Below are positions 19,609-33,988 of a stretch of 39,805 bases of DNA, one piece after another. A model generated the notes under the pieces. It made no database searches. It was not told the origin of the DNA and saw only the letters and a list, made by a program, of their open reading frames with translations. The first letter of the stretch is position 1. Every line of letters starts with the position of its first letter. The stretch comes from an uncultured bacterium (GTDB taxonomy: Bacteria > Verrucomicrobiota > Kiritimatiellia > RFP12 > UBA1067). Position numbers and translations under genes: made by a program. Location of the stretch: positions 1 to 39,805 of the forward strand of contig CACZDG010000043.1 of assembly GCA_902779865.1 (NCBI GenBank). Reading direction: 5' to 3'.

Positions 19609-19696
19609 GGAGAGTTGGCGGAGTGGTCGATCGCGGCGGTCTTGAAAACCGTTGACCCGCAAGGGTCCGGGGGTTCGAATCCCTCACTCTCCGCCA
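19609..19696 (+). tRNA. tRNA-Ser (anticodon UGA), CCA encoded
   Basis: The acceptor strand GGAGAGT pairs with ACTCTCC, with discriminator G and an encoded CCA at 19694-19696. The anticodon loop CTTGAAA has the anticodon TGA at 19643-19645, on a 5-bp stem with one G-U pair. A long variable arm (TTGACCCGCAAGGGTCCGG) and the GGTTCGAATCC T-arm identify a class II serine tRNA decoding UCA. Confidence 0.96.
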
Positions 19697-19749
19697 TTCA
19701 AGGGGAAGTGGCGAAATTGTGCGCGATTGCAATTTCCGTAATTTCCCCA

Positions 19750-19778
19750 TTGACGGAAGGGACGGGTTTTGATACACT
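19750..19778 (+). promoter_or_regulatory. promoter of the CAU tRNA
   Basis: TTGACG (19750-19755), a 17-bp spacer and TACACT (19773-19778) form a plausible sigma-70 type promoter 15 nt before the tRNA. It carries the same TTGACG -35 as the promoters at 32541 and 36400. Confidence 0.6.
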
Positions 19779-19793
19779 CTTATTCGTTCTTTC

Positions 19794-19868
19794 GGCGAGA
19801 TAGCTCAATGGTAGAGCATCGGAATCATAATCCGCTGGTTGAGGGTTCGAGTCCCCCTCTCGCCACCA
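19794..19868 (+). tRNA. tRNA with anticodon CAU (elongator Met, or Ile2)
   Basis: GGCGAGA pairs with TCTCGCC; discriminator A and an encoded CCA at 19866-19868. The D-arm is AGCTCAATGGTAGAGC, the anticodon CAT lies at 19826-19828, and the T-arm is GAGGGTTCGAGTCCCCC. The first acceptor pair is a normal G-C, so it is not an initiator. Whether it is elongator Met or lysidine-modified Ile2 cannot be settled by eye. Confidence 0.92.
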
Positions 19869-19890: not shown

Positions 19891-20574
19891 GTGTTAGAAA
19901 TTGAAAAAACGGGCGAGATGCCGTTAGAGAACGTATGTGCGCTTCTGCGCGGCGGCAACCGCGTATTGTTGATGACGCGCCATGCCGAGCGTCCGCACAT
20001 TGACCATGAGGATCCGTCGTTTGGCTGGAATCTGCCAATCACCGAGGAAGGACAATCCACCAGTCGAGCTTTCGGCAATGAGCTGCGACGGTTCGCCGAC
20101 GTGGTGCAGTTCGCGTCAAGTCCGCTTCGCCGCACGGTGATGACGGTCTCGTGCATCGCGGAGGGAATGGGGATCGAGCATCCCGAAATCCCCACTTACG
20201 AATGCCTTGGCAACGGGTCGTTCTACTTTGCCGACGCCCATGCAATCTGGGAGGAGTTCCGCGACGGCAGCTTCTTCGGAAAGTGCTTCGACTATTTCGC
20301 GACTGGATCGGGCCGTGGCTTCGCCGACCTTAACGCCGCGTCCGATTCTTTGGAGGAATGGTGCGTCGATCACTTCACCGCGCCGTTGGCTGTGTTCGCC
20401 ACGCACGACCTCTACATTGCGGCGTTTCTCGCAGCACGCGGCGCGGTCGAGCGCTTCAACGAGGGAAACTGGCCGCGTTTTCTGGATTCGGCGGCCATCG
20501 TGATCGCACCGGACGGCGGACGAAGCTACGCGCTTGTGCGCGCGGGGCTTTCAGACCGAGCCACAGGCGTGTGA
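19891..20574 (+). CDS. Histidine phosphatase superfamily protein
   Basis: A 227-residue phosphoglycerate-mutase-like hydrolase. The catalytic motif is LMTRHAERP (RHxE, with Ala in place of the common Gly). It is followed by SSPLRRTVMT, an acidic EFRDGSF region and the second catalytic His in ATHDLYIAAFLAA. Substrate is unknown; candidates are small phosphate esters or phosphoproteins. The start is uncertain: GTG 19891 gives the listed length, ATG 19918 removes nine residues, and neither has a strong ribosome-binding site. It begins just after the tRNA. Confidence 0.82.
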   Translation: MLEIEKTGEMPLENVCALLRGGNRVLLMTRHAERPHIDHEDPSFGWNLPITEEGQSTSRAFGNELRRFADVVQFASSPLRRTVMTVSCIAEGMGIEHPEIPTYECLGNGSFYFADAHAIWEEFRDGSFFGKCFDYFATGSGRGFADLNAASDSLEEWCVDHFTAPLAVFATHDLYIAAFLAARGAVERFNEGNWPRFLDSAAIVIAPDGGRSYALVRAGLSDRATGV

Positions 20575-22072: not shown

Positions 22073-22119
22073 AAAATCTTCGTCCGTGCTTCCCCTCTCG
22101 CCGCCGATTTGATATACTT
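22073..22119 (+). promoter_or_regulatory. promoter-bearing intergenic cassette, copy 1
   Basis: This segment, with core TCGTCCG and GCTTCCCC and then CGCCGCCGATTTG, ends in an extended -10 TGATATACT (22110-22118). It is closely repeated at 24184-24232. A small frame starts at 22129, 10 nt after the -10 box, implying an almost leaderless transcript that continues into the DUF1294 gene. Confidence 0.7.
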
Positions 22120-22128
22120 GCTTCCGCC

Positions 22129-22236
22129 ATGTTGAGGCAATCTTTCACAGACTTCATCTTCGCCACGAACACGGACGGGAGCGGCAAGGCCGCGTCCTAC
22201 GTCCGCGTGCTCGACATACAAGGAACGCGGTCATGA
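22129..22236 (+). pseudogene. 35-codon N-terminal gene remnant coupled to the next gene
   Basis: It encodes 35 residues, starting MLRQSFTDFIFATNTDGSGK and continuing with AASYVRVLDI. The DGSGKAxSY-x-RxLD pattern is, from memory, typical of N-termini of HNH-type or other restriction-like proteins, after which this frame stops early. It may be a truncated leftover kept because its stop overlaps the next start (ATGA), giving translational coupling. It could equally be a genuine leader peptide. Confidence 0.45.
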
Positions 22237-23639: not shown

Positions 23640-23829
23640 GCAGTTTGTGATGGCGGCAGATGTCGCTAATGTCAGCATGGATGTTCTGTATGACGTTGGA
23701 TTCAAGAAAGATGGTACAAATACGATGTTCACGACAATGGTTCGTGCTGCAATCCCAACCAATACCGTTACAATTGAAACGGTCCAGCAACTTGAAAATA
23801 TGCGTGGGAAGTGGTACGTCCGTCCGTAG
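23626..23829 (+). CDS. Doubtful small hypothetical protein
   Basis: A 67-codon frame with a GTG start sitting inside the inverted repeat at 23614-23639. The product (VANVSMDVLYDVGFKKDGTN, later ETVQQLENMRGKWYVRP) has ordinary amino-acid composition but no recognised family. No ribosome-binding site is clear. It could be the tail of a decayed gene, in line with the neighbouring HEPN-like remnant, or chance. Confidence 0.25.
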   Translation: MSAESQFVMAADVANVSMDVLYDVGFKKDGTNTMFTTMVRAAIPTNTVTIETVQQLENMRGKWYVRP

Positions 23830-23958
23830 CCCCGCACGGCTTGTCAAAAGTATGCGGTTTCGATGACCTTATCAAATCATCGCACATTGCAACGGCATGT
23901 AAATTGTGACACCACTGGTGACACAAAGCCGATAAAGGGTTCGGTTAAGGTCCCAAAT

Positions 23959-24112
23959 TCCTGTGTAGGGAAGTCAAAACTCCCGTGTAGGGGGATGAAA
24001 CCCTCCGTGTAGGAAGATCGTTCACCCCGTGTAGGGAGACCGTTTCCCAGTCCTAGGGAGATCGCACTCCAGTCCTAGGGAGCGTACACCCTAGTCCTAG
24101 GGAGAACGCACC
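23959..24112. repeat. 22-bp tandem array, seven units
   Basis: TAGG cores fall at 23966, 23988, 24010, 24032, 24054, 24076 and 24098, exactly 22 bp apart. Units 1-4 share CCGTGTAGGG; units 5-7 share CAGTCCTAGGGAG, which contains the palindrome CCTAGG. The last 8-9 bases of each unit vary. Since 22 is not a multiple of three, it cannot encode a peptide repeat, and there are no spacers, so it is not CRISPR. The period is about two helical turns, compatible with a protein binding one face of the DNA. Confidence 0.9.
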
Positions 24113-24183
24113 CCGATCGTGCGTACGGGCGGGCGCCCAACAGAGGCGCTTGTCTGTCACCACCCGCCACCCACCGGCGACCC

Positions 24184-24232
24184 ACAAATTTTTCGTCCGC
24201 GCTTCCCCGCGCGCCGCCGATTTGGTATACTT
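24184..24232 (+). promoter_or_regulatory. promoter-bearing intergenic cassette, copy 2
   Basis: Near-identical to 22073-22119 (shared TTCGTCCG, GCTTCCCC, CGCCGCCGATTTG and TATACTT), ending in the extended -10 TGGTATACT at 24223-24231. It is followed by a structured, terminator-ended stretch without a long frame, so it most likely drives an RNA gene. Confidence 0.7.
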
Positions 24233-24237
24233 ATTTC

Positions 24238-24495
24238 GCTTCGTTTGGAAGAACGTTGCAAGATAGCCCGGTGACGAGACCCGCCGTCGGGAGGGCCGAC
24301 AGGATCGGCCAGCGAATTGCAAACCTTGTCTCTTGAGAATTACCACCTCTGAAACGCCGACACGTGGCTTGCAAGACGATACCCTTTACCCTTGGGGTGT
24401 CGCCTTGTCAGGTAGTTGAGCGGGCTGTGGTAGGCCTTCAAGAGTGCGTGGCATAGGCGCGCCCCTCTAACCAGAACAGAGAGGTGCGCCTTTTT
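24238..24495 (+). ncRNA. Candidate structured non-coding RNA, ~255 nt
   Basis: The stretch has its own extended -10 promoter (24223-24231) and ends in a strong intrinsic terminator. Between them are three good hairpins. The first is CCCGGTGACG/CGCCGTCGGG (24267-24291, one mismatch). The second is GGCCGA-CAGGA-TCGGCC (24294-24310). The third is a long arm, GCAAGACGATACCC with GGGTGTCGCCTTGT (24371-24408, one mismatch). No frame of useful length crosses it. I could not match it to tmRNA, RNase P, SRP, 6S or a riboswitch; the key conserved motifs of those RNAs are absent. It lies immediately upstream of the restriction-modification cluster and may be a leader or an independent RNA. Confidence 0.55.
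24456..24495 (+). terminator. Strong intrinsic terminator
   Basis: GGCGCGCCCCTCT (24456-24468) pairs with AGAGAGGTGCGCC (24478-24490) with a single mismatch and one G-U across a nine-base loop, followed directly by TTTTT. It ends the candidate RNA and isolates the AT-rich cluster from upstream transcription. Confidence 0.85.
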
Positions 24496-24549
24496 GTTCG
24501 CAAACGAGAGACAGACGAGAGAGTGAAACTTCGCAGGTCAAAACCTGAT

Positions 24550-24687
24550 ATGCTGAAGCTTGGCGAATTATCCGACAAGTTAGAGGAGGGGTATGTCTCC
24601 ATGTTGAACGCTTTTAAGGTTATAGAATGTAAAAGGAGATGGTATGCGATACCTATTGAAAAGGTGTGGTCATCAAGAACTTGGTAG
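24550..24687 (+). CDS. Doubtful short protein overlapping the HNH gene
   Basis: A 45-codon frame (MLKLGELSDKLEEGYVSMLN onward, then ECKRRWYAIPIEKV) that overlaps the HNH start by 44 bp in another frame; a GTG at 24523 is an alternative start. The composition looks protein-like. It could be a small leader or control protein for the restriction cluster, but it lacks a clear helix-turn-helix and has only a weak ribosome-binding site. Confidence 0.25.
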   Translation: MLKLGELSDKLEEGYVSMLNAFKVIECKRRWYAIPIEKVWSSRTW

Positions 24688-25624
24688 TATGGGGCTGTCT
24701 ATCGGGCCTCAGCGAGGACAGTATCTGCTAATGGCTATAAAGCCAGAGGTGTTGTCCTTCTTTCCGCCATTGTCTGAGACTCGGCAAAATGATTTTCGGT
24801 TAGTGGCTTTTTACCCAGTCTATACCCACGACAAGGTATACTGCCGCTTCGTTTATCATAATGATAAGTTCCATGGTTCAACAGCGGCACACCCACGCAA
24901 TGAGTATCGGCTATATTTGAACCGGGAGCTTCAAGGCGGCCGACTCATGTATCAAGAAAACGGCATTGTTGTTCTTCGGATGGTTGATGAAACCAATTAT
25001 GATAATGGGTTGTATATTGACTATGCCAATCCTAGTGATCCGATGTATGCAGTTTACGATGCGTGTCTGAACGCTAATCGGTTAAAAGGAAGTGGCAACT
25101 ATGCTGTGTATGATGGCGTGATTAAGGAGTTTGAGGATGCTGTCGCAAAGGTAGTTAAAGCGGAACAAACAGTTAAGGTGGCTAAGGATGATGTTAAGTA
25201 CATCGCGAACAGTAAGACGGACATATCTCAATTGTTTACTGAAAAACAGTTTAGAGATTTTGTGTCTGTCGCTTATCAGCACAAGTGCGCGATAACGGGT
25301 ACGGTGATTGCGTATGAAGATATGAATAATTTGGAGACGGCGCACATACGTCCGAAATCACATGGAGGACCTTTCCTCCCTTGTAATGGGATGACCTTGT
25401 GTCGAGATTTCCATTGGGCGTTTGACCATGGTTTTTTGGCGTTGACAGATGATTTCCATGTTATGGTGTCGAAAAAGGCACCAAGTCCGTTGTTGCTCCC
25501 GTATGACAAAAAGCCTATTTTCATGCCGGAGGAACCATTTTTCCAACCCAAATTGGAGTACATTCAATACCATCGGAAAAATATCTTTGAACATTTTGCA
25601 CAAATAAGGTCAAGTTCAAAGTAG
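24644..25624 (+). CDS. HNH endonuclease, likely type II restriction enzyme
   Basis: A 326-residue protein. The C-terminal half carries an HNH (beta-beta-alpha-metal) nuclease: CAITG near 214, then LETAHIRPKSHGG with H234, then TLCRDFHWAFDHGFLALTDD with H257 and H262. The N-terminal 180 residues are likely the target-recognition part, with a helical segment before the nuclease. It starts at 24644 behind AAAAGGAG. It is followed 10 nt later by two cytosine methyltransferases, the typical neighbourhood of a restriction enzyme. AT-rich codon use contrasts with the flanking chromosome. The cleavage site cannot be predicted. Confidence 0.82.
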   Translation: MRYLLKRCGHQELGSMGLSIGPQRGQYLLMAIKPEVLSFFPPLSETRQNDFRLVAFYPVYTHDKVYCRFVYHNDKFHGSTAAHPRNEYRLYLNRELQGGRLMYQENGIVVLRMVDETNYDNGLYIDYANPSDPMYAVYDACLNANRLKGSGNYAVYDGVIKEFEDAVAKVVKAEQTVKVAKDDVKYIANSKTDISQLFTEKQFRDFVSVAYQHKCAITGTVIAYEDMNNLETAHIRPKSHGGPFLPCNGMTLCRDFHWAFDHGFLALTDDFHVMVSKKAPSPLLLPYDKKPIFMPEEPFFQPKLEYIQYHRKNIFEHFAQIRSSSK

Positions 25625-25634
25625 GGGCAGTGAG

Positions 25635-26687
25635 ATGAATGTAATTGATTTGTTTTCTGGCTGTGGTGGTTTGTCGAAGGGGTTTATGGATGCCGGTTGT
25701 GATGTACTGCTCGGTGTTGATATTGACCAAGCGGCATTGAATACTTTTGAGAAGAACCATCCTGGGGCGATTGGTTTGAAAGGAAGCCTTGCCGATGCAC
25801 CGACATTCAAGCAAATGGCGCAGATAATCGATAACCGGAATGTTGATCTTATTATTGGCGGGCCGCCATGTCAGGGTTTCTCTTTGACAGGTCCTAGGAA
25901 CTTTGATGATGAGAGAAACAAACTGTACTTATCGTACATAAAGGCAGTTGAACTTTTCAGGCCGAAGGGATTCATTATTGAAAACGTACCAGGTATGGCA
26001 ACCTTGTACAAGGGTGAGGTGAAGAATGAGATACTTAAGCGCTTTCGCAAGCTTGGATACAACATTGATTGCCGAGTCTTATGTGCAGCTGATTATGGCG
26101 TGCCGCAGATTAGGCGCAGACTTGTTTTCATTGGGCTTCAGAAGCAATATGGAGAGGTGTCATTCCCAGAACCAGTTGTTGACTCGAAGCATTACGTGAC
26201 TAGTCGTGAAGCGATTGATGATTTGCCGCCGTTAATAGATGATCTGGGTACAGAGATTTCTTCATACTGTCAGAAGGCGAGGACTGAATATCAAAAGAAG
26301 ATGCGTGGTAAATGTAACGTTCTATCGAATCACACCGCTACGGAGCATAAAGATTTCGTGAAGAAAGTGATTGCGCAAGTTCCGGAAGGAGGAAATTATA
26401 AAGACTTGCCTAAAGGCGTAGGAGAGCATAGACGGTTTCATATGGCGTGGACTCGGTGTGATGGCCATAAACCATCCAGAACGATTGATACTGGGCACAG
26501 GAATTATTTTCATTATGAATACAACAGGATTCCAACAGTCCGTGAAAGCGCACGATTACAATCTTTCCCCGATGACTTTGTGTTTGTTGGAACACGAACC
26601 CAACAATACAGGCAAGTAGGGAACGCGGTTCCGCCCTTGCTTGGATACGCTCTTGCAAAGCACCTAATCAGTCTGATAGAGAGGTAA
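25635..26687 (+). CDS. C5-cytosine DNA methyltransferase 1
   Basis: A 350-residue Dcm-type enzyme with motif I (IDLFSGCGGLSKGF), motif IV with the catalytic C79 (GGPPCQGFSLTG), motif VI with E116 (IIENVPG), motif VIII (QIRRRLVFIG) and C-terminal motif X (RQVGNAVPPLLG). The variable target region between motifs VIII and IX is fairly short. It protects one strand or one form of the recognition site of the adjacent HNH nuclease. The gap to the next methyltransferase is 1 nt. Confidence 0.95.
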   Translation: MNVIDLFSGCGGLSKGFMDAGCDVLLGVDIDQAALNTFEKNHPGAIGLKGSLADAPTFKQMAQIIDNRNVDLIIGGPPCQGFSLTGPRNFDDERNKLYLSYIKAVELFRPKGFIIENVPGMATLYKGEVKNEILKRFRKLGYNIDCRVLCAADYGVPQIRRRLVFIGLQKQYGEVSFPEPVVDSKHYVTSREAIDDLPPLIDDLGTEISSYCQKARTEYQKKMRGKCNVLSNHTATEHKDFVKKVIAQVPEGGNYKDLPKGVGEHRRFHMAWTRCDGHKPSRTIDTGHRNYFHYEYNRIPTVRESARLQSFPDDFVFVGTRTQQYRQVGNAVPPLLGYALAKHLISLIER

Positions 26688-26688
26688 T

Positions 26689-28068
26689 ATGGCGAAGTTG
26701 TCCACAATTGATTTGTTTGCCGGTTGCGGTGGATTGATGGATGGTTTTCAACAAAGCGGTTTTTTTGATACTCTTGCTTGCGTTGAATGGGAGTCCGCGC
26801 CATGTAAGAATCTCGTTAAAAGATTGAAAACCAAATGGGGACATGACAACGCAGACCGTGAGGTCTTGCGTTTCGACATACAACGTACTGATGAGTTGTT
26901 TCACGGATATTCTGATACAGAATATGGTGTTAGCAGGGGACTGGACGCTTTAGTAGACAAGAAGCAGGTTGATGTTCTTATAGGGGGGCCTCCGTGCCAG
27001 GCATACTCATTAGCCGGACGTATTCGTGATGAAAATGGAATGCGTGATGACTACCGCAATTACTTGTTTGAGAGTTACTTAAAGGTGGTGGAGCATTACC
27101 AGCCTGAATTCTTCTTATTTGAGAATGTCGTTGGGATGTTGTCTGCTGCGCCCGATGGAACACCAATTGCGGACAAGATTAAATCCAAATTCAATGAGGC
27201 AGGTTATGCGGTCATAGACGATTTTAGGCAGGCGGTGTTCTCTTTGCCCGACTATGGCATTCCACAGAACAGGAAAAGAATAATAATTCTTGGGGTACGA
27301 ATCAAGTCCTTCCCAAGTAATCATCAAAAGATTATTGATGATTTCTACAGCAACATAATGCCGTCTTACCACAAAGAAAAGAGAACCGTTCAAGACGCCA
27401 TTGGTGATCTGCCAAAATTTCAACCGACAGTTGAGGGAGAAAAGGTTATTTATCGTCTGCAAGGTAACACTATCGTTCCAAATCATACCCCAAGAGGTCA
27501 AAGCGCAAGAGATATTGCCGTGTTCAAGTTGCTCACTGAAGACATCGAGACAAAAAGATTTGAGTACACTTCAATCGAGAAACTCAAGGAGTTATACACC
27601 CGCATTACTGGAAAGAAAAGTAATATTCATAAATACTATGTCCTGCGTCGCGATGAGCAGAGTAATACTATTCCTGCGCATCTGTACAAAGATGGTTTTC
27701 GTCATATCCACCCGGACTCTTCGCAATGCAGAACGTTGACAGTCCGGGAAGCCGCCCGCCTCCAAACATTTGATGATGACTACGAGTTTATCGGCAGCAT
27801 GGGTGAGCAATATAAAATGATCGGGAATGCCGTTCCCCCTGCATTCGCCAAGATATTAGCACAGGCAATGGCGGAGATATACATTAATTACTGTCCTGAA
27901 AAAGTCCCAGAAAATTTCGGTAGAGATCGTGCCAAAAGTTATGTGCGTGAGCCAAGAATGGTTCAGCTTATGTTGGCTTTTGAACGGAAACGAAAATACT
28001 TAGCTCGCAAGAAGAACACATCGACACGGCAAAAGAGAAAAACAGTTAGGTGCCGCTACGTTAAATGA
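26689..28068 (+). CDS. C5-cytosine DNA methyltransferase 2
   Basis: A 459-residue Dcm-type enzyme clearly different from its neighbour. It has motif I (IDLFAGCGGLMDGF), motif IV with C103 (GGPPCQAYSLAGR), motif VI with E145 (FENVVGM), motif VIII (PQNRKRIIILGVR), a larger target-recognition region with SNTIPAHLYKDG, and motif X (KMIGNAVPPAFA). A basic tail of about 50 residues (KRKYLARKKNTSTRQKRKTV) follows. Two m5C enzymes beside one nuclease usually mean an asymmetric target site, one enzyme per strand. Confidence 0.95.
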   Translation: MAKLSTIDLFAGCGGLMDGFQQSGFFDTLACVEWESAPCKNLVKRLKTKWGHDNADREVLRFDIQRTDELFHGYSDTEYGVSRGLDALVDKKQVDVLIGGPPCQAYSLAGRIRDENGMRDDYRNYLFESYLKVVEHYQPEFFLFENVVGMLSAAPDGTPIADKIKSKFNEAGYAVIDDFRQAVFSLPDYGIPQNRKRIIILGVRIKSFPSNHQKIIDDFYSNIMPSYHKEKRTVQDAIGDLPKFQPTVEGEKVIYRLQGNTIVPNHTPRGQSARDIAVFKLLTEDIETKRFEYTSIEKLKELYTRITGKKSNIHKYYVLRRDEQSNTIPAHLYKDGFRHIHPDSSQCRTLTVREAARLQTFDDDYEFIGSMGEQYKMIGNAVPPAFAKILAQAMAEIYINYCPEKVPENFGRDRAKSYVREPRMVQLMLAFERKRKYLARKKNTSTRQKRKTVRCRYVK

Positions 28069-28074
28069 TCGACA

Positions 28075-28803
28075 ATGGCTGAAACACTCAAAATCAAGGA
28101 CTTGCCGCTTGAGTCTCGTCCACGCGAGGCGTTCATGCGTTCGGCCGATCCTCAAAAGGAAATACCGGATGCAATGCTTCTTGCTATCCTTATTAGAACA
28201 GGTCAAAAAGGATCAAGTGCCATTGACCTTGCCCATAGGCTCATCAGACACTTCGGTAGTGCGGCAAATCTCGTAGATGCGTCATGGCAGCAGATCGTCG
28301 CCGCCAAGGTTCCTGGCGTGGGAAAAGTTGCAGCCGTTCAGTTGGCGGCGGCATTTGCACTTGTTAAACGTAATGTCCGAACATCGCAGCGTTCATTCAA
28401 ACGTGCAGTGGAAACTTCCGATGACGTTGTGCGACAAGTCCTGTCCGCCGGTATTGACGAAAAGCAAGAAAATACATTTGCGCTCTATCTCGACACGCAA
28501 AGACGGCTTTTGTGCGAACCGCTGCTTGTGTTTCGGGGTGTCCTCGACGCAACGCCGCTTCATCCCCGCGACATATTCCGCCATGCGATACGCCTTGGAG
28601 CAGCATCCGTAATCATCGCTCACACACATCCAAGTGGCGATGCCATGCCAAGCGATGAAGATTTGTTGGAGACGAAACGACTCATCGAAACCGGCAAGAT
28701 GGTCGGTATCCCGCTTGACGATCATGTTGTCATCGGCTGTGGAACACGACACCATGTTTCGATACGTGGTGCTGGATTGGTCCACTTTGGCGATAACACA
28801 TAA
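28075..28803 (+). CDS. radC: RadC/JAB-domain protein
   Basis: A 242-residue RadC. An N-terminal UPF0758-type helix-hairpin-helix (PREAFMRSADPQKEIPDAML, VPGVGKVAAVQLAAAF) precedes a JAMM metalloprotease-like domain with H183-T-H185, S193 and D196 (AHTHPSGDAMPSDED). The metal motif is complete. RadC is common on mobile and defence islands, where it is often assigned an anti-restriction or repair-associated role, but its biochemistry is unsettled. It is encoded 6 nt after the second methyltransferase and shares the AT-rich style of the cluster, so this is an accessory copy. Confidence 0.93.
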   Translation: MAETLKIKDLPLESRPREAFMRSADPQKEIPDAMLLAILIRTGQKGSSAIDLAHRLIRHFGSAANLVDASWQQIVAAKVPGVGKVAAVQLAAAFALVKRNVRTSQRSFKRAVETSDDVVRQVLSAGIDEKQENTFALYLDTQRRLLCEPLLVFRGVLDATPLHPRDIFRHAIRLGAASVIIAHTHPSGDAMPSDEDLLETKRLIETGKMVGIPLDDHVVIGCGTRHHVSIRGAGLVHFGDNT

Positions 28804-28878
28804 GGCGAGCAGCGTCATGGATGTATTTTGTCTAAAGTTGCGTTATCGGAGAAGTGCCATGGGGGACAATTGTAAGAC

Positions 28879-30360
28879 ATGAAGGTCCTCTTTGATACAA
28901 ATATCTTCATCGCGTTGGAGACTCCCGGAGAAGTTCTGCCAGACACACTATCCGACATGGTTCGTATTGCAAGAGAACTTCACTACGACATCTGCTATCA
29001 TCATGCACAAATCGAAGATTTGATGCGTGACAAGGATGAGCAGAGAAAGGCGGCACAACTGTCTCGAATAAAACAGTATGCCCCATTGCAAAAGCCGCCC
29101 ATCCCTACTGGTGCAGACCTTAAAACGTTAGGATGGAAACAAAATAGTGAGCATGACAAGGTTGACAACATCTTGTTGTTTTCGGTCAAGAGGAGCGCTG
29201 TCTCATTTCTTGTCACAGAAGACAGGGGCATACATAAAAAAGCCGCAAAGGCCGGGTTGTCAGATCGCGTGTTCTTCACCGAAGACTTCCTTGCCTATCT
29301 TCGCAATGCCCAAAGAACAGATGGTTTTGTTTCATCAGGGACCTATGTTTTCGTGGAAAAGAAGTTTCTTTACGAAATTGATGTTGAGGACATCTTCTTT
29401 GATTCTCTACGACAAGGATACCCTGACTTCAATGATTGGTATCACAGGAAGTCTGAAGAAGGCAGACAGGCGTGGGCGATTCTTTCGGGGCAGGTTATAG
29501 GTGCGTTGTGCATCTACAAGGAGGAACGTGACGAGAAAGTTACCACGGCAGGAGAGATTTTGCGCGGAAGGTCTTTGAAACTCTGCACCCTCAAAGTAGC
29601 TGACCTTGGAAAGAAATACGGAGAGAGGCTTCTTTATGTTGCTTTCAATTATGCGACGGATAACAAGTTTGATTACGTTTATATTCAAGTCCAAGACGAA
29701 AAGCATGGGTACCTCATTTCCTTACTCACAGATTTTGGCTTTACCAAGTTCGGCGAATACAACAACGACACAACCTACGTCAAGGATATGCGTGTTGGTA
29801 TCTGGAAGGGATCGGTGGATAGGAATGATTATGTCCAATATGCGATTGCCCATTACCCACATATAATTGACATAGGAGTGAAGAAATACATTGTCCCAAT
29901 TAGGCCTAACTATCACGACTTGCTTTTCCCGGATAGAAATCAATATCAGGACTTGTTTCAGGGGGGCTTGTCAAGTGAATCCAATGCAATCAAGAAGGCG
30001 TATCTTTGCAAGAGCCCCATAAGGGATATACGGCCAGGGGATTTGCTTTTCTTCTATCGTTCAAAAGATTCGCAGAGCATTTGCAGCGTTGGCATTGTAG
30101 AGAAGATCAAGCGTTTTACTAATGCAGACGATTTGATTTCCTTTGTGTCGAAAAGAACGGTATACACACATGAGGAGATGAGAAAATTCATCAGTAAGGG
30201 TGAGGTGTTGGCAATACTATTTCGTCTGATTCGGTATTTGAAACAACCTGTCGAAAGAAAATCTCTGCTCAACAATGGTATAACAGGGCAGATACAGACC
30301 ATACGCGAGATGCCCGAGAGCGTATATCGCCAGCTCTTCAAAAAGGATTTGGGACTATGA
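28879..30360 (+). CDS. PIN-GNAT-EVE-like three-domain protein
   Basis: A 493-residue fusion. Residues 1-130 are a PIN nuclease with the acidic set D6 (LFDTNIF), E46, D93/D96 (EHDKVDNILL) and D115 (VTEDRGIH), all present, so RNase activity is expected. Residues about 140-315 look like a GNAT acetyltransferase fold (LCTLKVADLGKKYGERLL, then QDEKHGYLISLLTDFGF). Residues about 345-493 resemble an EVE/ASCH PUA-like domain (SPIRDIRPGDLLFFYRSKD, SVGIVEKIKRF). A nuclease toxin, an acyltransferase and a modified-base or RNA reader in one chain suggest a self-contained toxin-antitoxin-like or sensing nuclease. Its start is 75 nt after radC, and it overlaps the ASCH gene by 4 bp. Confidence 0.78.
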   Translation: MKVLFDTNIFIALETPGEVLPDTLSDMVRIARELHYDICYHHAQIEDLMRDKDEQRKAAQLSRIKQYAPLQKPPIPTGADLKTLGWKQNSEHDKVDNILLFSVKRSAVSFLVTEDRGIHKKAAKAGLSDRVFFTEDFLAYLRNAQRTDGFVSSGTYVFVEKKFLYEIDVEDIFFDSLRQGYPDFNDWYHRKSEEGRQAWAILSGQVIGALCIYKEERDEKVTTAGEILRGRSLKLCTLKVADLGKKYGERLLYVAFNYATDNKFDYVYIQVQDEKHGYLISLLTDFGFTKFGEYNNDTTYVKDMRVGIWKGSVDRNDYVQYAIAHYPHIIDIGVKKYIVPIRPNYHDLLFPDRNQYQDLFQGGLSSESNAIKKAYLCKSPIRDIRPGDLLFFYRSKDSQSICSVGIVEKIKRFTNADDLISFVSKRTVYTHEEMRKFISKGEVLAILFRLIRYLKQPVERKSLLNNGITGQIQTIREMPESVYRQLFKKDLGL

Positions 30361-30776
30361 TGATTCTACTTTCTATAAAGAAAGTCTATTGTGACTTGAT
30401 ATTAAATGGAACTAAACGATTTGAGTTCCGTAAATGTCTGCCGAATGGTCTCAGGAAGGGAGACGAGGTGGCCATATATTGCACGCGCCCTGTTTCAAGA
30501 GTTGTAGCCTATTTCAGAATTGCTGATATTATTCAAGCAACACGGCAGAGACTTTGGAGGCAGACGCGTCTTGCGGCGGGCATCAATTATGAAACATTTA
30601 TGCGCTATTTTAGTGTGACGAAACAAGCAAGCGCAATCAAAATCGGAAAACTATATGTACTGAAAACGCCTTTATCGTTAGTACGACTTCGTAGAAATAA
30701 AACCCCACCACAATCTTTTCTGTATTTGACTGAATCACAGGCCGAGAAGATGAGAGAATATGCACGGCATCACTAA
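30357..30776 (+). CDS. ASCH/PUA-like domain protein
   Basis: A 139-residue protein of the ASCH type. The opening LLSIKKVYCDLILNGTKRFE followed by FRK, and then GDEVAIYCTRPVSRVVAYFR, matches the ASCH/predicted-regulator pattern of RNA- or modified-nucleotide-binding beta-barrels. It overlaps the PIN-GNAT-EVE-like gene by 4 bp, so the two are almost certainly co-translated partners. ASCH proteins occur as toxins (some with RNase activity) and as readers; which applies here is unknown. Confidence 0.75.
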   Translation: MMILLSIKKVYCDLILNGTKRFEFRKCLPNGLRKGDEVAIYCTRPVSRVVAYFRIADIIQATRQRLWRQTRLAAGINYETFMRYFSVTKQASAIKIGKLYVLKTPLSLVRLRRNKTPPQSFLYLTESQAEKMREYARHH

Positions 30777-30800
30777 CGTGTACATGAGGTCATTTGATTT

Positions 30801-31796
30801 ATGACATCCACTATTTCGATTTCGTTAAGCCTTGACGAAAAAGGCTTCATAGACAGAGCTTGTCCGAGGTGTTCATACAGATTTAAGGTGAAGAATTCTT
30901 GCTGGCCGAAGTCCAAGATAGGAGGATTGCCTTGGGCAAGAACTTTCGCATATGCGTTCTGCCCAATGTGTGGTCACAAGGCGGTATCTGACAATTGGCA
31001 TACACCAGAACAGATTAAGGCTGCAAAGAAAATCGCAGTGGAAAAAGCAAAGCAACAGGTGCTTTCGCAAATAGACAAATCGCTTGTGCGGTTTTCCCGA
31101 TCCTTCTCTCACAATCCATTTGTCAAAATGGAATATAAACCGTCTTTTCCGTATCGGCATATAAACACAAGAACACCTTTCGACCAGGCCTTGGAGCGCA
31201 ATATAGTATGTTCAAAGTGTAACGCGTCATACGCAGTTGTTGGATCAGCATTCTTTTGTCCAGTGTGTGGAGAGAACACGGTCGTAGCATCATTCGCAAG
31301 TGCAATGTCAAATATCAATAAGGCACTTGATGCGTTACCTGCGGAAAAGAAAGTATTTGAAGAATTTGGTGGCGTTGACTTTGCCAGAGACCAGATCCGT
31401 CATTTAATAGAAAGATCGGTCGGAGACATCATTTCAACTTTTCAATCGTTCGCATTAAGATTGTACGAAGATCTTGGGGGGCATGGGGCAAAGCCGAATG
31501 ACTTTCAGATACTCGCTAAAGGAAGTGCATTATTTGAAAGCCTGACCGGCAAGGCATACTCTGAATGGGTGACAACAGATCAACTGAAATTCATGAATCT
31601 CATGTTTCAGCGACGACATCTGCTTGAACACAACAATGGATTGGTTGATCCGAGGTATCTTGATAAGACTAATGATCTCGGGTACAAGATAGGCGAACGG
31701 ATAGTTGTTCGTGTTGATGATGTTCGAAAGCTCCAGGCCATTACTCTTGCCCTTAGCAACGGTCTGCTATCACAACTTCAAGTGCCTAAACCATAA
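30801..31796 (+). CDS. Double zinc-ribbon protein with HEPN-like RxxxxH motif
   Basis: A 331-residue protein with two zinc ribbons: C21/C24 with C54/C57, and C137/C140 with C153/C156. A helical C-terminal region carries R272-HLLE-H277 within FQRRHLLEHNNGLVDPRYLD, the RX4-6H signature of HEPN ribonucleases. The RHxxxHNxGxVDxxYL context is common in predicted HEPN proteins. Zinc ribbons could bind nucleic acid or a partner. It ends the AT-rich cluster, 24 nt after the ASCH gene. HEPN assignment rests on the motif and predicted helicity only. Confidence 0.65.
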   Translation: MTSTISISLSLDEKGFIDRACPRCSYRFKVKNSCWPKSKIGGLPWARTFAYAFCPMCGHKAVSDNWHTPEQIKAAKKIAVEKAKQQVLSQIDKSLVRFSRSFSHNPFVKMEYKPSFPYRHINTRTPFDQALERNIVCSKCNASYAVVGSAFFCPVCGENTVVASFASAMSNINKALDALPAEKKVFEEFGGVDFARDQIRHLIERSVGDIISTFQSFALRLYEDLGGHGAKPNDFQILAKGSALFESLTGKAYSEWVTTDQLKFMNLMFQRRHLLEHNNGLVDPRYLDKTNDLGYKIGERIVVRVDDVRKLQAITLALSNGLLSQLQVPKP

Positions 31797-31905
31797 GTCC
31801 ATTTGCAGAATTGCGCGAATGTTCATAGGCCGTTACCTGTTTCGGACTCGTAGAACAACCTGTTGTACCCTAAACGGTTTGTGGTTGCCGAAATGAATGG
31901 GTTTG

Positions 31906-31914
31906 TGGTACACT
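31906..31914 (+). promoter_or_regulatory. extended -10 promoter of a micro-operon
   Basis: TGGTACACT lies 9 nt before the ATG at 31924, so the leader would be only about 3 nt long. Confidence 0.55.
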
Positions 31915-31923
31915 TGTTCCGCA

Positions 31924-32133
31924 ATGAAAAAGTATTTCATCCTCAAGTTGGACTCGTATGAGGGCGAGGGAAGCTCGTTGACGGTGGACGTCGACGGGTC
32001 GGACAGCATGTATGTCGTCTTGAATATTGAAGGCTCGTCGGCGGAGATTGTCGATTGGGGTTATCCAACGGTCGACGATCTTCTTGCGGCGTGGGACAAC
32101 GTGACGTTTGAGAATATGGGGGAGTTCAAGTGA
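31924..32133 (+). CDS. Small acidic protein
   Basis: A 69-residue, strongly acidic protein (MKKYFILKLDSYEGEGSSLT; VVLNIEGSSAEIVDWGYPTV), probably a small beta-rich fold. I do not recognise the family. The ATG at 31924 is chosen over an upstream ATG at 31897 because that one precedes the -10 box. Its stop overlaps the next GTG (GTGA), and a GGGGGAG site at 32117 serves the next gene. Confidence 0.6.
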   Translation: MKKYFILKLDSYEGEGSSLTVDVDGSDSMYVVLNIEGSSAEIVDWGYPTVDDLLAAWDNVTFENMGEFK

Positions 32134-32345: not shown

Positions 32346-32551
32346 TTGCGAACGCCTTCACCTGCACCGGCTCGTATGCGATCTTGATTCTGTACGGGAT
32401 CAAGCGGACGGAGAACCGCAGCGCGTGGCCGGAGCCGTGCGAGGGGCGGGCGAGTCGAAGGGCGCGAGTCCTACAGTCGCTAGTGGTTGTGGCACAAACT
32501 GCCCATTTGTGGTCAATATGTGGCATACTTGCATTTGCCATTGACGCATAA
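32342..32551 (+). pseudogene. Truncated ASCH-domain gene
   Basis: The first ~38 residues (TCTGSYAILILYGIKRTENR then SAWPEP, EGRA) match the start of ASCH domains (a YAxLIL-x-GxKxxENR-x-WP-x-x-x-GR pattern). After this the frame continues into SRRARVLQSLVVVAQTAHLW, which no longer resembles the domain, and ends after 69 codons. It looks broken by a frameshift or deletion, with its 3' part replaced by the promoter region of abiEi. It is a second, degraded ASCH-type gene close to the intact one at 30357. Confidence 0.55.
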
Positions 32552-32570
32552 TGGCCGGAAATGGTATAAT
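32541..32570 (+). promoter_or_regulatory. Consensus-like promoter of the AbiE cassette
   Basis: TTGACG (32541-32546), an 18-bp spacer and TATAAT (32565-32570), preceded by TG (TGGTATAAT). The GTG start codon follows after 7 nt, exactly where transcription should begin. Confidence 0.8.
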
Positions 32571-32577
32571 TGCGTCC

Positions 32578-33120
32578 GTGACAGCATACGAGACCATATA
32601 CGACGAGGCCATCGGAAACTACGGGCTAATAACCGTATCTGCCGCCAAGGCACTCGGAATAAACGCCGCGACGCTTGCAAAGCTTGCGCATCGCGGGCGG
32701 CTTGAACGAATTGCGCACGGCCTCTACCGCATAGACAAGTATGTTCCAAGCCAAGGCGGGCTGGACGCATACGCCTGTGCCGTGGCAAGCCTCGGCGGCG
32801 ATTCCTATCTGTGGGGACCTTCCGCCATCGCCATCCGAAACCTCTGCCCTACAGATCCATCCGTGATCTACGTGGCCACTCCGGCAAGATACAGGGGCAA
32901 GCCGCGCGGCGGCGTGATCGTGAAGGACAGGACGCCGTGCGGCGACATCGACAACATCGAAGGCATCAGGGTGCAGGGCGTCTGCAGCGCAATTCTCTCC
33001 AGTCAGCACATGATCATGTTCGACAGGCTGCTTGACGCAGTCAATGTGGCGAAGGCCAAAAACCTCATCAACGCGGAACAGGCGCACGCAACGACGAAAG
33101 GACTTTACGTCAATGACTAA
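32578..33120 (+). CDS. abiEi: AbiEi-type antitoxin/transcriptional regulator
   Basis: A 180-residue protein of the AbiEi family. The N-terminal winged helix-turn-helix is GLITVSAAKALGINAATLAK followed by RGRLERIAHGLYRID. The middle (GPSAIAIRNLCPTDPSVIYV) matches the conserved AbiEi domain. It represses its own promoter and neutralises the nucleotidyltransferase toxin in type IV systems. The GTG at 32578 is favoured; an ATG at 32551 lies inside the promoter. It overlaps abiEii by 8 bp. Confidence 0.88.
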   Translation: MTAYETIYDEAIGNYGLITVSAAKALGINAATLAKLAHRGRLERIAHGLYRIDKYVPSQGGLDAYACAVASLGGDSYLWGPSAIAIRNLCPTDPSVIYVATPARYRGKPRGGVIVKDRTPCGDIDNIEGIRVQGVCSAILSSQHMIMFDRLLDAVNVAKAKNLINAEQAHATTKGLYVND

Positions 33121-33988
33121 GCGCCCCAATTCACGCGTCAACCTCGACAAGGCCATCATGAGGCTTTTCGGCAGCTACGACAAGTCGTTGGAGACTCGCG
33201 ACATCATGGCAAACGCGATAGTCGGCCAGATGCTCTGCGGGGCAGTCGTGAAAGGCGGAAGCGGACTCAAACTCCGCTACGGCATGAGCTGCACGAGGGC
33301 GACGGTTGACCTTGACACCGCATGTAGCGGTGACATCCCGCAGTTCATAGATACTCTCGCCGCGCGCTTGAAAGATGGGTGGAACGACTTTACCGGCGAG
33401 GTGGTCAGGCGTAACCCCGCGACGCCCAAGGATGTCCCGCAGCAGTACGTGATGAAGCCGTATGCCGTTCGCCTGATGTACAAAGGGCAGTCGTGGTGTA
33501 CGGTTGACCTTGAGGTCGGTTTCAACGAAATCGGCGATGCGGACGATTCGGAATATGCGCTTTCCGGCGAAGTGGCTGAAATCTTCACGCGGCTCGGATT
33601 CCCCGTTCCCGATTCCATCCCGCTCATGAAGTGCGAGTTTCAGGTCGCGCAGAAACTCCATGGCCTGACGGAACAGAACAGCCGCCGGGCGCACGACCTC
33701 ATCGACCTTCAGCTGATCGTCGAGAGGACGCCAATCGACCTTGCCGCGACAAGGCGAATCTGCGAGAGGCTTTTCGCGTTCAGGAGGCTTCAAACATGGC
33801 CGCCTAGGATTGTGATGAGGCAGGAGTGGGAATCGCTCTATCGGACGGCCAACGCAAAAGGCGGCGCGAAGCGTTCTTTGGCGGAGGCCATCGAATGGGC
33901 GAACGAACTCATCGCGCAGATTGCCAGTGGTGGGGAACAACAGGGCCCCGTCGGCGCAATAGCATCGACACAGGAACGCGAGAGGTGA
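33113..33988 (+). CDS. abiEii: AbiEii-type nucleotidyltransferase toxin
   Basis: A 291-residue AbiEii/AbiGii family toxin. Motif I is VVKGGSGLKLRYG with the downstream TRATVDLD acidic pair (the GS...DxD nucleotidyltransferase site). A second acidic strand is WCTVDLEVGF, and a C-terminal block CEFQVAQKLHGLTEQNSRRA then HDLIDLQ is typical. Family members transfer nucleotides (GTP-dependent or to tRNA) and arrest growth when the antitoxin fails. The ATG at 33113 overlaps abiEi. Key residues look intact. Confidence 0.9.
   Translation: MTKRPNSRVNLDKAIMRLFGSYDKSLETRDIMANAIVGQMLCGAVVKGGSGLKLRYGMSCTRATVDLDTACSGDIPQFIDTLAARLKDGWNDFTGEVVRRNPATPKDVPQQYVMKPYAVRLMYKGQSWCTVDLEVGFNEIGDADDSEYALSGEVAEIFTRLGFPVPDSIPLMKCEFQVAQKLHGLTEQNSRRAHDLIDLQLIVERTPIDLAATRRICERLFAFRRLQTWPPRIVMRQEWESLYRTANAKGGAKRSLAEAIEWANELIAQIASGGEQQGPVGAIASTQERER

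Follow-up and report, generated by a model that had tools for sequence, protein, structure and literature searches.

A probable composite restriction and defence island behind a candidate regulatory leader RNA in an uncultured Kiritimatiellia bacterium

A block of seven genes, all encoded on the + strand at positions 24644–31796 of the window (the whole 39,805-nt stretch of DNA that was analysed), is best explained as a composite, probably acquired island lying behind a leader RNA that would control its transcription, most likely by premature termination; we assign this reading a probability of roughly 0.6. The island combines a type II-like restriction core with swappable defence genes. From gene 1 to gene 7, the successive intergenic gaps measure 10, 1, 6, 75, −4 and 24 nt. 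GC content is 0.446 in the block versus 0.600 in the remainder of the window, and GC3 ranges from 0.37 to 0.50 across the seven genes versus 0.74 to 0.82 in the four flanking genes measured. The gene count, gaps and AT-rich composition given in a first-pass annotation of this DNA are thus confirmed by ORF coordinates, GC and GC3, and its domain calls hold through Pfam for the HNH, methylase and RadC genes and through PADLOC for genes 5, 6 and the first half of gene 7. Downstream lies an AbiE pair with GC3 of 0.69–0.73, consisting of an AbiEi antitoxin-like gene (32551–33120, + strand), host-like in GC3 and outside the AT-rich block, and an AbiEii toxin-like gene (33032–33988, + strand), the true start of which is probably within the ORF. 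Scanning of positions 24300–32000 detected 11 promoter-like sites versus 13.0 in shuffled sequences and 5 terminator-like sites versus 6.4, i.e. no excess of either. The same scan revealed no promoter-like site between the leader and gene 1, so that, judging from the sequence, a single transcript carrying genes 1 to 7 is plausible.

The structured leader (model R1, 295 positions) maps to 24220–24514 on the + strand, upstream of gene 1 and outside the block. It begins with an extended −10 promoter-like sequence, TGGTATACT (24223–24231, + strand), which takes the form TGGTATAxT in six of the eight full-length copies identified. Toward its end is a terminator-like hairpin followed by a T-rich stretch (24456–24490, + strand; helix 9 in the covariation analysis), which the simple terminator scan missed because its loop limit was 8 and the loop here is 9; the T run is interrupted in genomes G582 and G584. 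About 290 nt of the leader are conserved across the eight full copies. Twelve base pairs have changed on both sides, a number matched by 1 of 500 shuffles, and the covariation score was reached by none of 500. Further pair types did not stand out, since 44 of 500 shuffles scored equally high, and most of the both-side changes are confined to two of the nine helices. Two or more TTGCAA-like repeats occur in 7 of the 8 full copies, these boxes not being present in all of them. The covariance models of Rfam 15 gave no match to the leader, and in region 23800–24700 no model matched even at an E limit of 1; the only matches at gathering score in the whole window were two tRNAs. This succession of promoter-like start, conserved structure and terminator hairpin ahead of an operon has the appearance of an attenuator-type layout, like that of attenuator and riboswitch leaders, from which the element differs in matching no Rfam 15 family and in being found ahead of defence genes.

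An 18-base leader pattern with 2 mismatches allowed proved too loose, as it hit 83 of the family's 115 genomes; DNA and covariance searches were therefore used instead. Full-length copies were found in 8 of the 115 genomes. All eight precede a defence-like operon on the same strand, at a distance of 0–144 nt, and these operons are mostly of different types; since two of the copies (G007 and G556) were reached via methylase similarity and that of the window via the seven-gene finding, the context of these three is biased by the route through which they were found. As a control, 48 random ORFs drawn from 90 (at least 200 aa) in eight stretches beside element loci of seven genomes were compared with PADLOC at E 1e-5. 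Together they matched 71 PADLOC families, and among the 25 families listed none matched more than one of the ORFs, a result that leaves the base rate of defence genes near these loci uncertain. Lying beside leader loci, the stretches may also be enriched in such genes. The 18-base core found in 12 viral contigs extended at best over 18–25 model positions and marked no element. When the leader itself was searched for, the one match in phages covered 41 nt of a capsid gene, and there was none in plasmids.

We consider that the leader most likely sets the level of operon transcription by premature termination. More tentatively, it may be the first of a new class of leader RNAs, serving this bacterial family as a shared regulatory switch: restriction, Mza-type and other defence operons of unrelated structure would each have been set behind it, and it would sense infection or establishment in a new host and control read-through; so understood, it would be the RNA counterpart of C proteins. 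C-protein control and the control of a defence island by RptR (PMC12255303) are likewise dedicated to restriction or defence genes, but C proteins and RptR are proteins and the element described here is a leader RNA. Titles and abstract openings of the literature disclosed no leader RNA common to unrelated defence operons.

It is possible, though doubtful, that the element does no more than supply a common strong promoter and 5′ untranslated region, carried along with mobile genes in this family, and exerts no termination control. Such an interpretation is consistent with the shortened copies, in which the parts retained are chiefly the promoter-like start and first hairpin, and with the observation that 9 of the 32 full and shortened copies stand before genes without a clear defence character, the 32 copies being what remains of 44 leader matches once 8 terminator-only matches in reverse orientation, L229:836, L224 and 2 duplicates are removed. 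Against it stand some 290 nt maintained across the eight full copies, together with compensatory changes and the retention of the terminator-like hairpin. We regard as unlikely a trans-acting small RNA, encoded by a gene apart from the operon and equipped with a terminator of its own, that would serve defence operons as, for instance, an antitoxin or a sensor; although the leader's discrete promoter-to-terminator organization would suit such a gene, the shared strand and the 0–144 nt spacing of all eight full copies ahead of an operon suit a cis-acting leader.

Behind the leader, genes 1–3 form the type II-like restriction core, and gene 4 follows them. Gene 1 (24644–25624, + strand) encodes an HNH endonuclease (Pfam HNH_2, E 1.1e-8), the HNH part of which resembles TagI (6ghs, E 1.7e-9). 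Its residues 4–90 match L140 (36% over 87 aligned columns), a protein that Pfam assigns to EcoRII-N/B3; Pfam finds no B3 match in gene 1 itself, so the B3 likeness is transitive, via L140 only. Genes 2 (25635–26687, + strand) and 3 (26689–28068, + strand) encode the C5-cytosine DNA methyltransferases M1 and M2 (PF00145, E 3e-72 and 8.4e-56, respectively), and gene 4 (28075–28803, + strand) encodes a RadC-like JAB protein (PF04002, E 3e-30). Methylase and nuclease genes stand together as in type II restriction-modification, and genes 1–3 resemble systems of this type in which an HNH nuclease is combined with a pair of m5C methylases, from which gene 1 departs through its N-terminal part, similar to an EcoRII-N/B3 protein only by way of L140. 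The type II layout proposed by the first-pass annotation is supported by the same HNH-M1-M2 order in the relative G556, with identities of 42, 85 and 71%, respectively. By the functions of their families, the two methylases would mark host DNA and the B3-like/HNH nuclease would cut unmarked DNA, RadC being an accessory.

Gene 5 (28879–30360, + strand) encodes a PIN-GNAT-EVE protein matched by PADLOC PDC-M11A (E 1.4e-128) over residues 1–488 of 493; the Pfam matches to EVE (E 0.0053) and Acetyltransf_1 (GNAT; E 0.022) are both under gathering scores. It overlaps by 4 bp gene 6 (30357–30776, + strand), which encodes an ASCH protein (PDC-M11B, E 5.2e-38) with an ASCH match under the Pfam gathering score. 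The PIN acidic residues D6, D93, D96 and D115 of gene 5 are kept in 20 of 20 sequences. A member of the gene-6 family is present in all 22 gene-5 loci, three of which carry a reduced gene 5 (PIN is missing in two and one is split), and adjoins gene 5 in 21, lying 351 nt off in the split one. For plasmids, 15 of the 33 records with a gene-5 match were taken, three with 8-kb and twelve with 10-kb flanks; phylum matches G150, G184 and the second of G324 (PIN part only) were excluded. Gene 5 alone had no relative in the scan of viral contigs, and its alignment A3 matched one viral contig, L139. The occurrence of PIN-GNAT-EVE and ASCH genes near type I restriction is already published (Bell et al. 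2020, PMC7641849), and that article credits Iyer et al. 2013 for (PIN)-GNAT-EVE and ASCH operons. These operons correspond to PDC-M11A/B, and genes 5 and 6 share their architecture and adjacency but lack the AAA_17 ATPase. Type I restriction neighbours, frequent yet non-obligatory for PDC-M11, are absent here, and a type II-like m5C core stands in their place. No literature naming PDC-M11 or PDC-M14 was found, and PIN-GNAT-EVE was found only in PMC7641849. Genes 5 and 6 are an independent two-gene unit. They probably act as an effector that attacks RNA, with PUA-like domains that would read modified bases, as inferred in the literature.

Gene 7 (30801–31796, + strand) encodes a Zn-ribbon/HEPN-type protein. 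PADLOC PDC-M14A (E 1e-17), a model of 152 positions, matches its first half (residues 1–159), to which gene 7 adds a C-terminal half containing the HEPN-type motif. HEPN ribonucleases carry the motif R-x4-6-H, which R272-H273-x3-H277 (RHxxxH) of gene 7 fits, and the predicted HEPN assignment rests on this motif. In the alignment rows, R272 is kept in 80 of 80 and H277 in 79 of 80; of 87 gene-7 loci 80 were taken, and because L070 has no ORF the alignment comprises 79 of these plus the window. Four CxxC pairs form two zinc-ribbon-like units, with the eight cysteines kept in 79–80 of the 80 rows, and a PDB-sequence profile search gave as its best match a Zn-ribbon protein (E 0.078). Gene 7 is independent of the other genes, and its product is probably an RNase. 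The conserved catalytic-type residues of genes 5 and 7 lend support to the two ribonucleases predicted in the cluster at first pass. On plasmids, a phospholipase D-like gene lies upstream of one gene-7 relative and a P-loop NTPase gene upstream of another; five neighbourhoods, from 15 matching plasmid records, contained no annotated gene-5 relative.

Tight spacing and a common AT-rich composition of all seven genes could be taken as signs of one integrated, two-layer system, in which the tail genes would cut RNA and arrest growth upon failure of restriction, ASCH/EVE domains sensing modified bases. The idea that HEPN toxins act together with restriction systems has been published, and RNase toxins beside restriction systems have precedent there (PMC3710099). 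We find this improbable given the gene neighbourhoods, tabulated over stretches of 7 to 21 kb (flanks up to 10 kb, often ended by the contig). Neither gene 7 nor relatives of genes 1–4 (phmmer, E 1e-5) occur in any of the 22 PIN-GNAT-EVE/ASCH loci, a pair resembling genes 5 and 6 lies near a gene-7 relative in 1 of 80 loci (L079, about 5.6 kb off), and in G556 the core is combined with a different tail, made up of a PDC-M26A-like protein and a nuclease resembling McrC. A three-gene tail module was accordingly rejected: within these stretches genes 5 and 6 recur together, but neither with gene 7, apart from L079, nor with the restriction core, in part the outcome that the earlier annotation had named as contradicting it. 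Nor does its statement that no named system was known hold for the tail, given the PADLOC entries PDC-M11A/B and PDC-M14A and the pair reported in PMC7641849; the sections of PMC12839542 and PMC10853773 consulted yielded no counterpart of the seven-gene set. The pair without gene 7, the solo gene 7 and the core with a different tail lead us to the composite island.

This island was probably acquired horizontally, and the low GC3 common to all seven genes fits acquisition in one piece as well as piecemeal. Viral carriage was rejected, the scans of viral contigs with genes 1, 5 and 7 having given no relatives and the gene-5 alignment only L139. It is most improbable that the leader merely marks a fixed chromosomal hotspot for defence gene insertion, conserved through its place: relatives of window flanking genes do lie near copies in G033 (M20), G532 (murG) and G550 (NUDIX and the gene at 19891), but 27 flanking ORFs have no relative at E 1e-15 in the stretches of G556, G007, G553, G582, G584, G032 and G564, the covariance search, run on the genus's 16 other genomes, found the leader in one (G007), G582, G584 and G556 hold several copies each, the leader matches of G582 and of G553 are spread over two contigs with shortened ones on the second, and with so few flanking genes in common between leader loci this explanation was set aside.

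For the seven genes the value of the analysis is corrective, as the restriction core is told apart from a two-gene module already known and from an HEPN-type gene that occurs alone, and we therefore claim no new seven-gene system. How bacteria keep immune systems quiet until they are needed is poorly known, and to our knowledge the known controls of restriction and immune systems are mostly proteins. An RNA leader common to unrelated restriction systems would be new and, if true, a single leader RNA for unrelated immune operons would provide one testable handle on immune quiescence.

The seven plus-strand, AT-rich genes at 24644..31796 described in the first-pass annotation were confirmed, with intergenic gaps of 10, 1, 6, 75, −4 and 24 nt. 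GC3 ranges from 0.37 to 0.50 in these genes and from 0.74 to 0.82 in four measured flanking genes. Gene 1 encodes an HNH endonuclease whose HNH part is similar to TagI (6ghs); its N-terminal residues 4–90 align with a 144-residue protein of locus L140 assigned to EcoRII-N/B3 by Pfam, and since Pfam found no B3 domain in gene 1 itself, its B3 likeness is transitive. Genes 2 and 3 encode C5-cytosine methylases (M1 and M2), gene 4 RadC, gene 5 a PIN-GNAT-EVE protein (PADLOC entry PDC-M11A) and gene 6 an ASCH protein (PDC-M11B). PDC-M14A matches the first half of gene 7, whose four CxxC pairs and RHxxxH motif are retained by almost every one of 80 sequences. An AbiEi/AbiEii type IV toxin-antitoxin-like pair lies directly downstream (32551–33988) and apparently outside the AT-rich block, given its host-like GC3 of 0.69–0.73. 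The source genome comprises 4.3 Mb in 272 contigs (completeness 92%, contamination 3.19%).

Tabulating the neighbours of tail homologues upheld only part of the proposal that genes 5 to 7 form a module attached to restriction-modification. Among 22 loci bearing gene-5 relatives (15 of 33 matching plasmid records and seven places in same-phylum genomes), all carry an ASCH gene of the gene-6 family, which abuts or overlaps gene 5 in 21 and lies 351 nt away in the split locus L129. Relatives of gene 7 were found at none of the 22 (profile search, E 0.01), and the suggested link to genes 1–4 was not borne out, with relatives likewise at 0/22 (phmmer, E 1e-5). Annotation places a type I-like restriction system in L138 and a CRISPR system in L129. 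Conversely, 80 gene-7 loci from genome contigs include RadC in three, an m5C methylase in one and a gene-5/6-like pair in one. The latter, at L079:9287-11880, is the sole such pair close to a gene-7 relative among the 80 loci; in it, a protein of 707 aa that is weakly similar to gene 5 adjoins a gene-6-type ASCH gene. These counts make gene 7 a free-ranging gene and genes 5 and 6 a self-contained pair. Bell et al. 2020 (PMC7641849) had already reported this pair: nearly every operon contains ASCH, an AAA_17 ATPase is often present, and type I restriction systems are frequent neighbours. According to that paper, none of the modules had been experimentally characterised.

Matches to gene 3 at E 1e-40 occur in four of 289 genomes of the class, the window's own included. 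In G556, a genome of the same family, an HNH gene (42% identity), M1 (85%) and M2 (71%; 75% over 408 residues in the gene-3 search) follow the window's order, with a PDC-M26A-like protein of 1016 aa and a McrC-like nuclease (DUF2357-PDDEXK_7) replacing genes 4–7, one example indicating that the restriction core is able to keep other company.

The stretch upstream of gene 1 is also conserved: G007 shares 90% identity with it across 324 nt, and G556 77% across 256 nt. This leader (24220–24514, plus strand) was used as a DNA query against 60 relatives, which added G033 and G032; the G032 copy then matched 14 of 115 family genomes, eight at full length (the window's own genome G000 and G007, G556, G033, G032, G553, G582 and G584). 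A covariance model found copies in 20/115 family genomes and, across the class, in 20/346, of which 19 belong to the family and the remaining one matches only a short terminator part; both searches used stricter filters that lose weak matches. The leader has no match in Rfam, and titles and abstract openings in the literature revealed nothing like it. L228 (G584:C31) and L145 (G556:C17) each carry four copies, one full and three shortened, on a single strand within 20 kb and followed by different genes, including nucleotidyltransferase-like ones. Within the window, a second promoter-like block (22088–22235) resembles the start of the stretch at 24200–24232 and is followed by sequence that by eye recalls the start of an HNH-type gene found behind shortened leaders elsewhere; it looks like a remnant ahead of a DUF1294 gene. 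Imperfect tandem repeats, seen by eye as GTGTAGGGA / CCTAGGGA-like units, lie upstream of the leader (23955–24110), and two parts of this stretch match G556. The tRNA-Ser and tRNA-Met genes at 19609–19868 precede the leader by about 4.4 kb and are possible landmarks for integration.

The eight full copies can be aligned over about 290 nt with a consensus of 67 pairs. Pairing holds in 96.2% of cells and the covariation score is 0.256 (each 0/500 shuffles as high), and 12 pairs changed on both sides (as many in 1/500), although kinship among sequences can by itself outscore such shuffles. Further pair types are unremarkable (44/500), several helices are nearly invariant, and helices 1 and 7 account for six and three, respectively, of the 12 both-side changes. 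Pairing collapses to 36–48% in slid versions of the alignment, and 24220–24505 folded alone gives z = −3.43. At its start the leader carries an extended −10-like motif, which reads TGGTATAxT in 6/8 copies. At its end is a GC-rich hairpin whose T-rich tail is broken up in G582 and G584; the hairpin loop exceeds the limit of a simple terminator scan, which did not list it. Two or more TTGCAA-like boxes occur in seven of the eight.

A defence-like operon follows every full copy (8/8, PADLOC candidates counted) on the same strand, 0–144 nt downstream. It begins with a B3-like/HNH gene and two m5C genes in G000 and, with the same core, in G556; an m5C methylase and a HATPase protein in G007; an m5C methylase in G033; an m5C methylase and HNH in G582; MzaB and MzaC in G584; a protein matching part of PDC-M33A in G032; and an ORF6N/PDC-S05 protein, then HNH, in G553. 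Because the finding started from the window, and G007 and G556 were reached by methylase similarity, the unbiased set is G033, G032, G553, G582 and G584: all five are defence-like, with an m5C methylase first in two. A RadC-like gene further down in G582 (L227:11883-12806; 36%, 125 residues) suggests that RadC may be a recurring companion, and an MjaI-type restriction endonuclease (L259:884-1498) immediately follows a shortened copy in the same genome.

Across 32 full and shortened copies, a restriction enzyme or its recognisable remnant comes first in 14, and another defence-like gene in nine, a generous class that includes four nucleotidyltransferase-like genes, one YhcG-type nuclease and one 985-aa HATPase protein ahead of an m5C methylase. 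The other nine are two NUDIX, two HTH-protein-like, one nitroreductase, one DUF1294-like and three unknown, two of these three lying outside the scan. For nine of the 32, the assignment was made from resemblance of the initial residues to a gene of the window or to one that had been scanned; two came from tblastn only. PADLOC matches among 48 nearby ORFs, taken as a control, were scattered and do not exactly fix the base rate of defence genes.

The make-up of the modules and the conservation of the leader are observed. As to function, the core probably restricts unmethylated DNA, the gene 5–6 pair and gene 7 probably attack RNA, and the leader's terminator most likely limits transcription until some signal favours read-through; the TTGCAA-like boxes could, speculatively, form competing pairs. 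Less likely, the leader is a plain promoter/UTR, a trans-acting RNA or a hotspot marker. The seven-gene cluster combines known or catalogued parts in a new way, and the leader is the surprising part of the locus.
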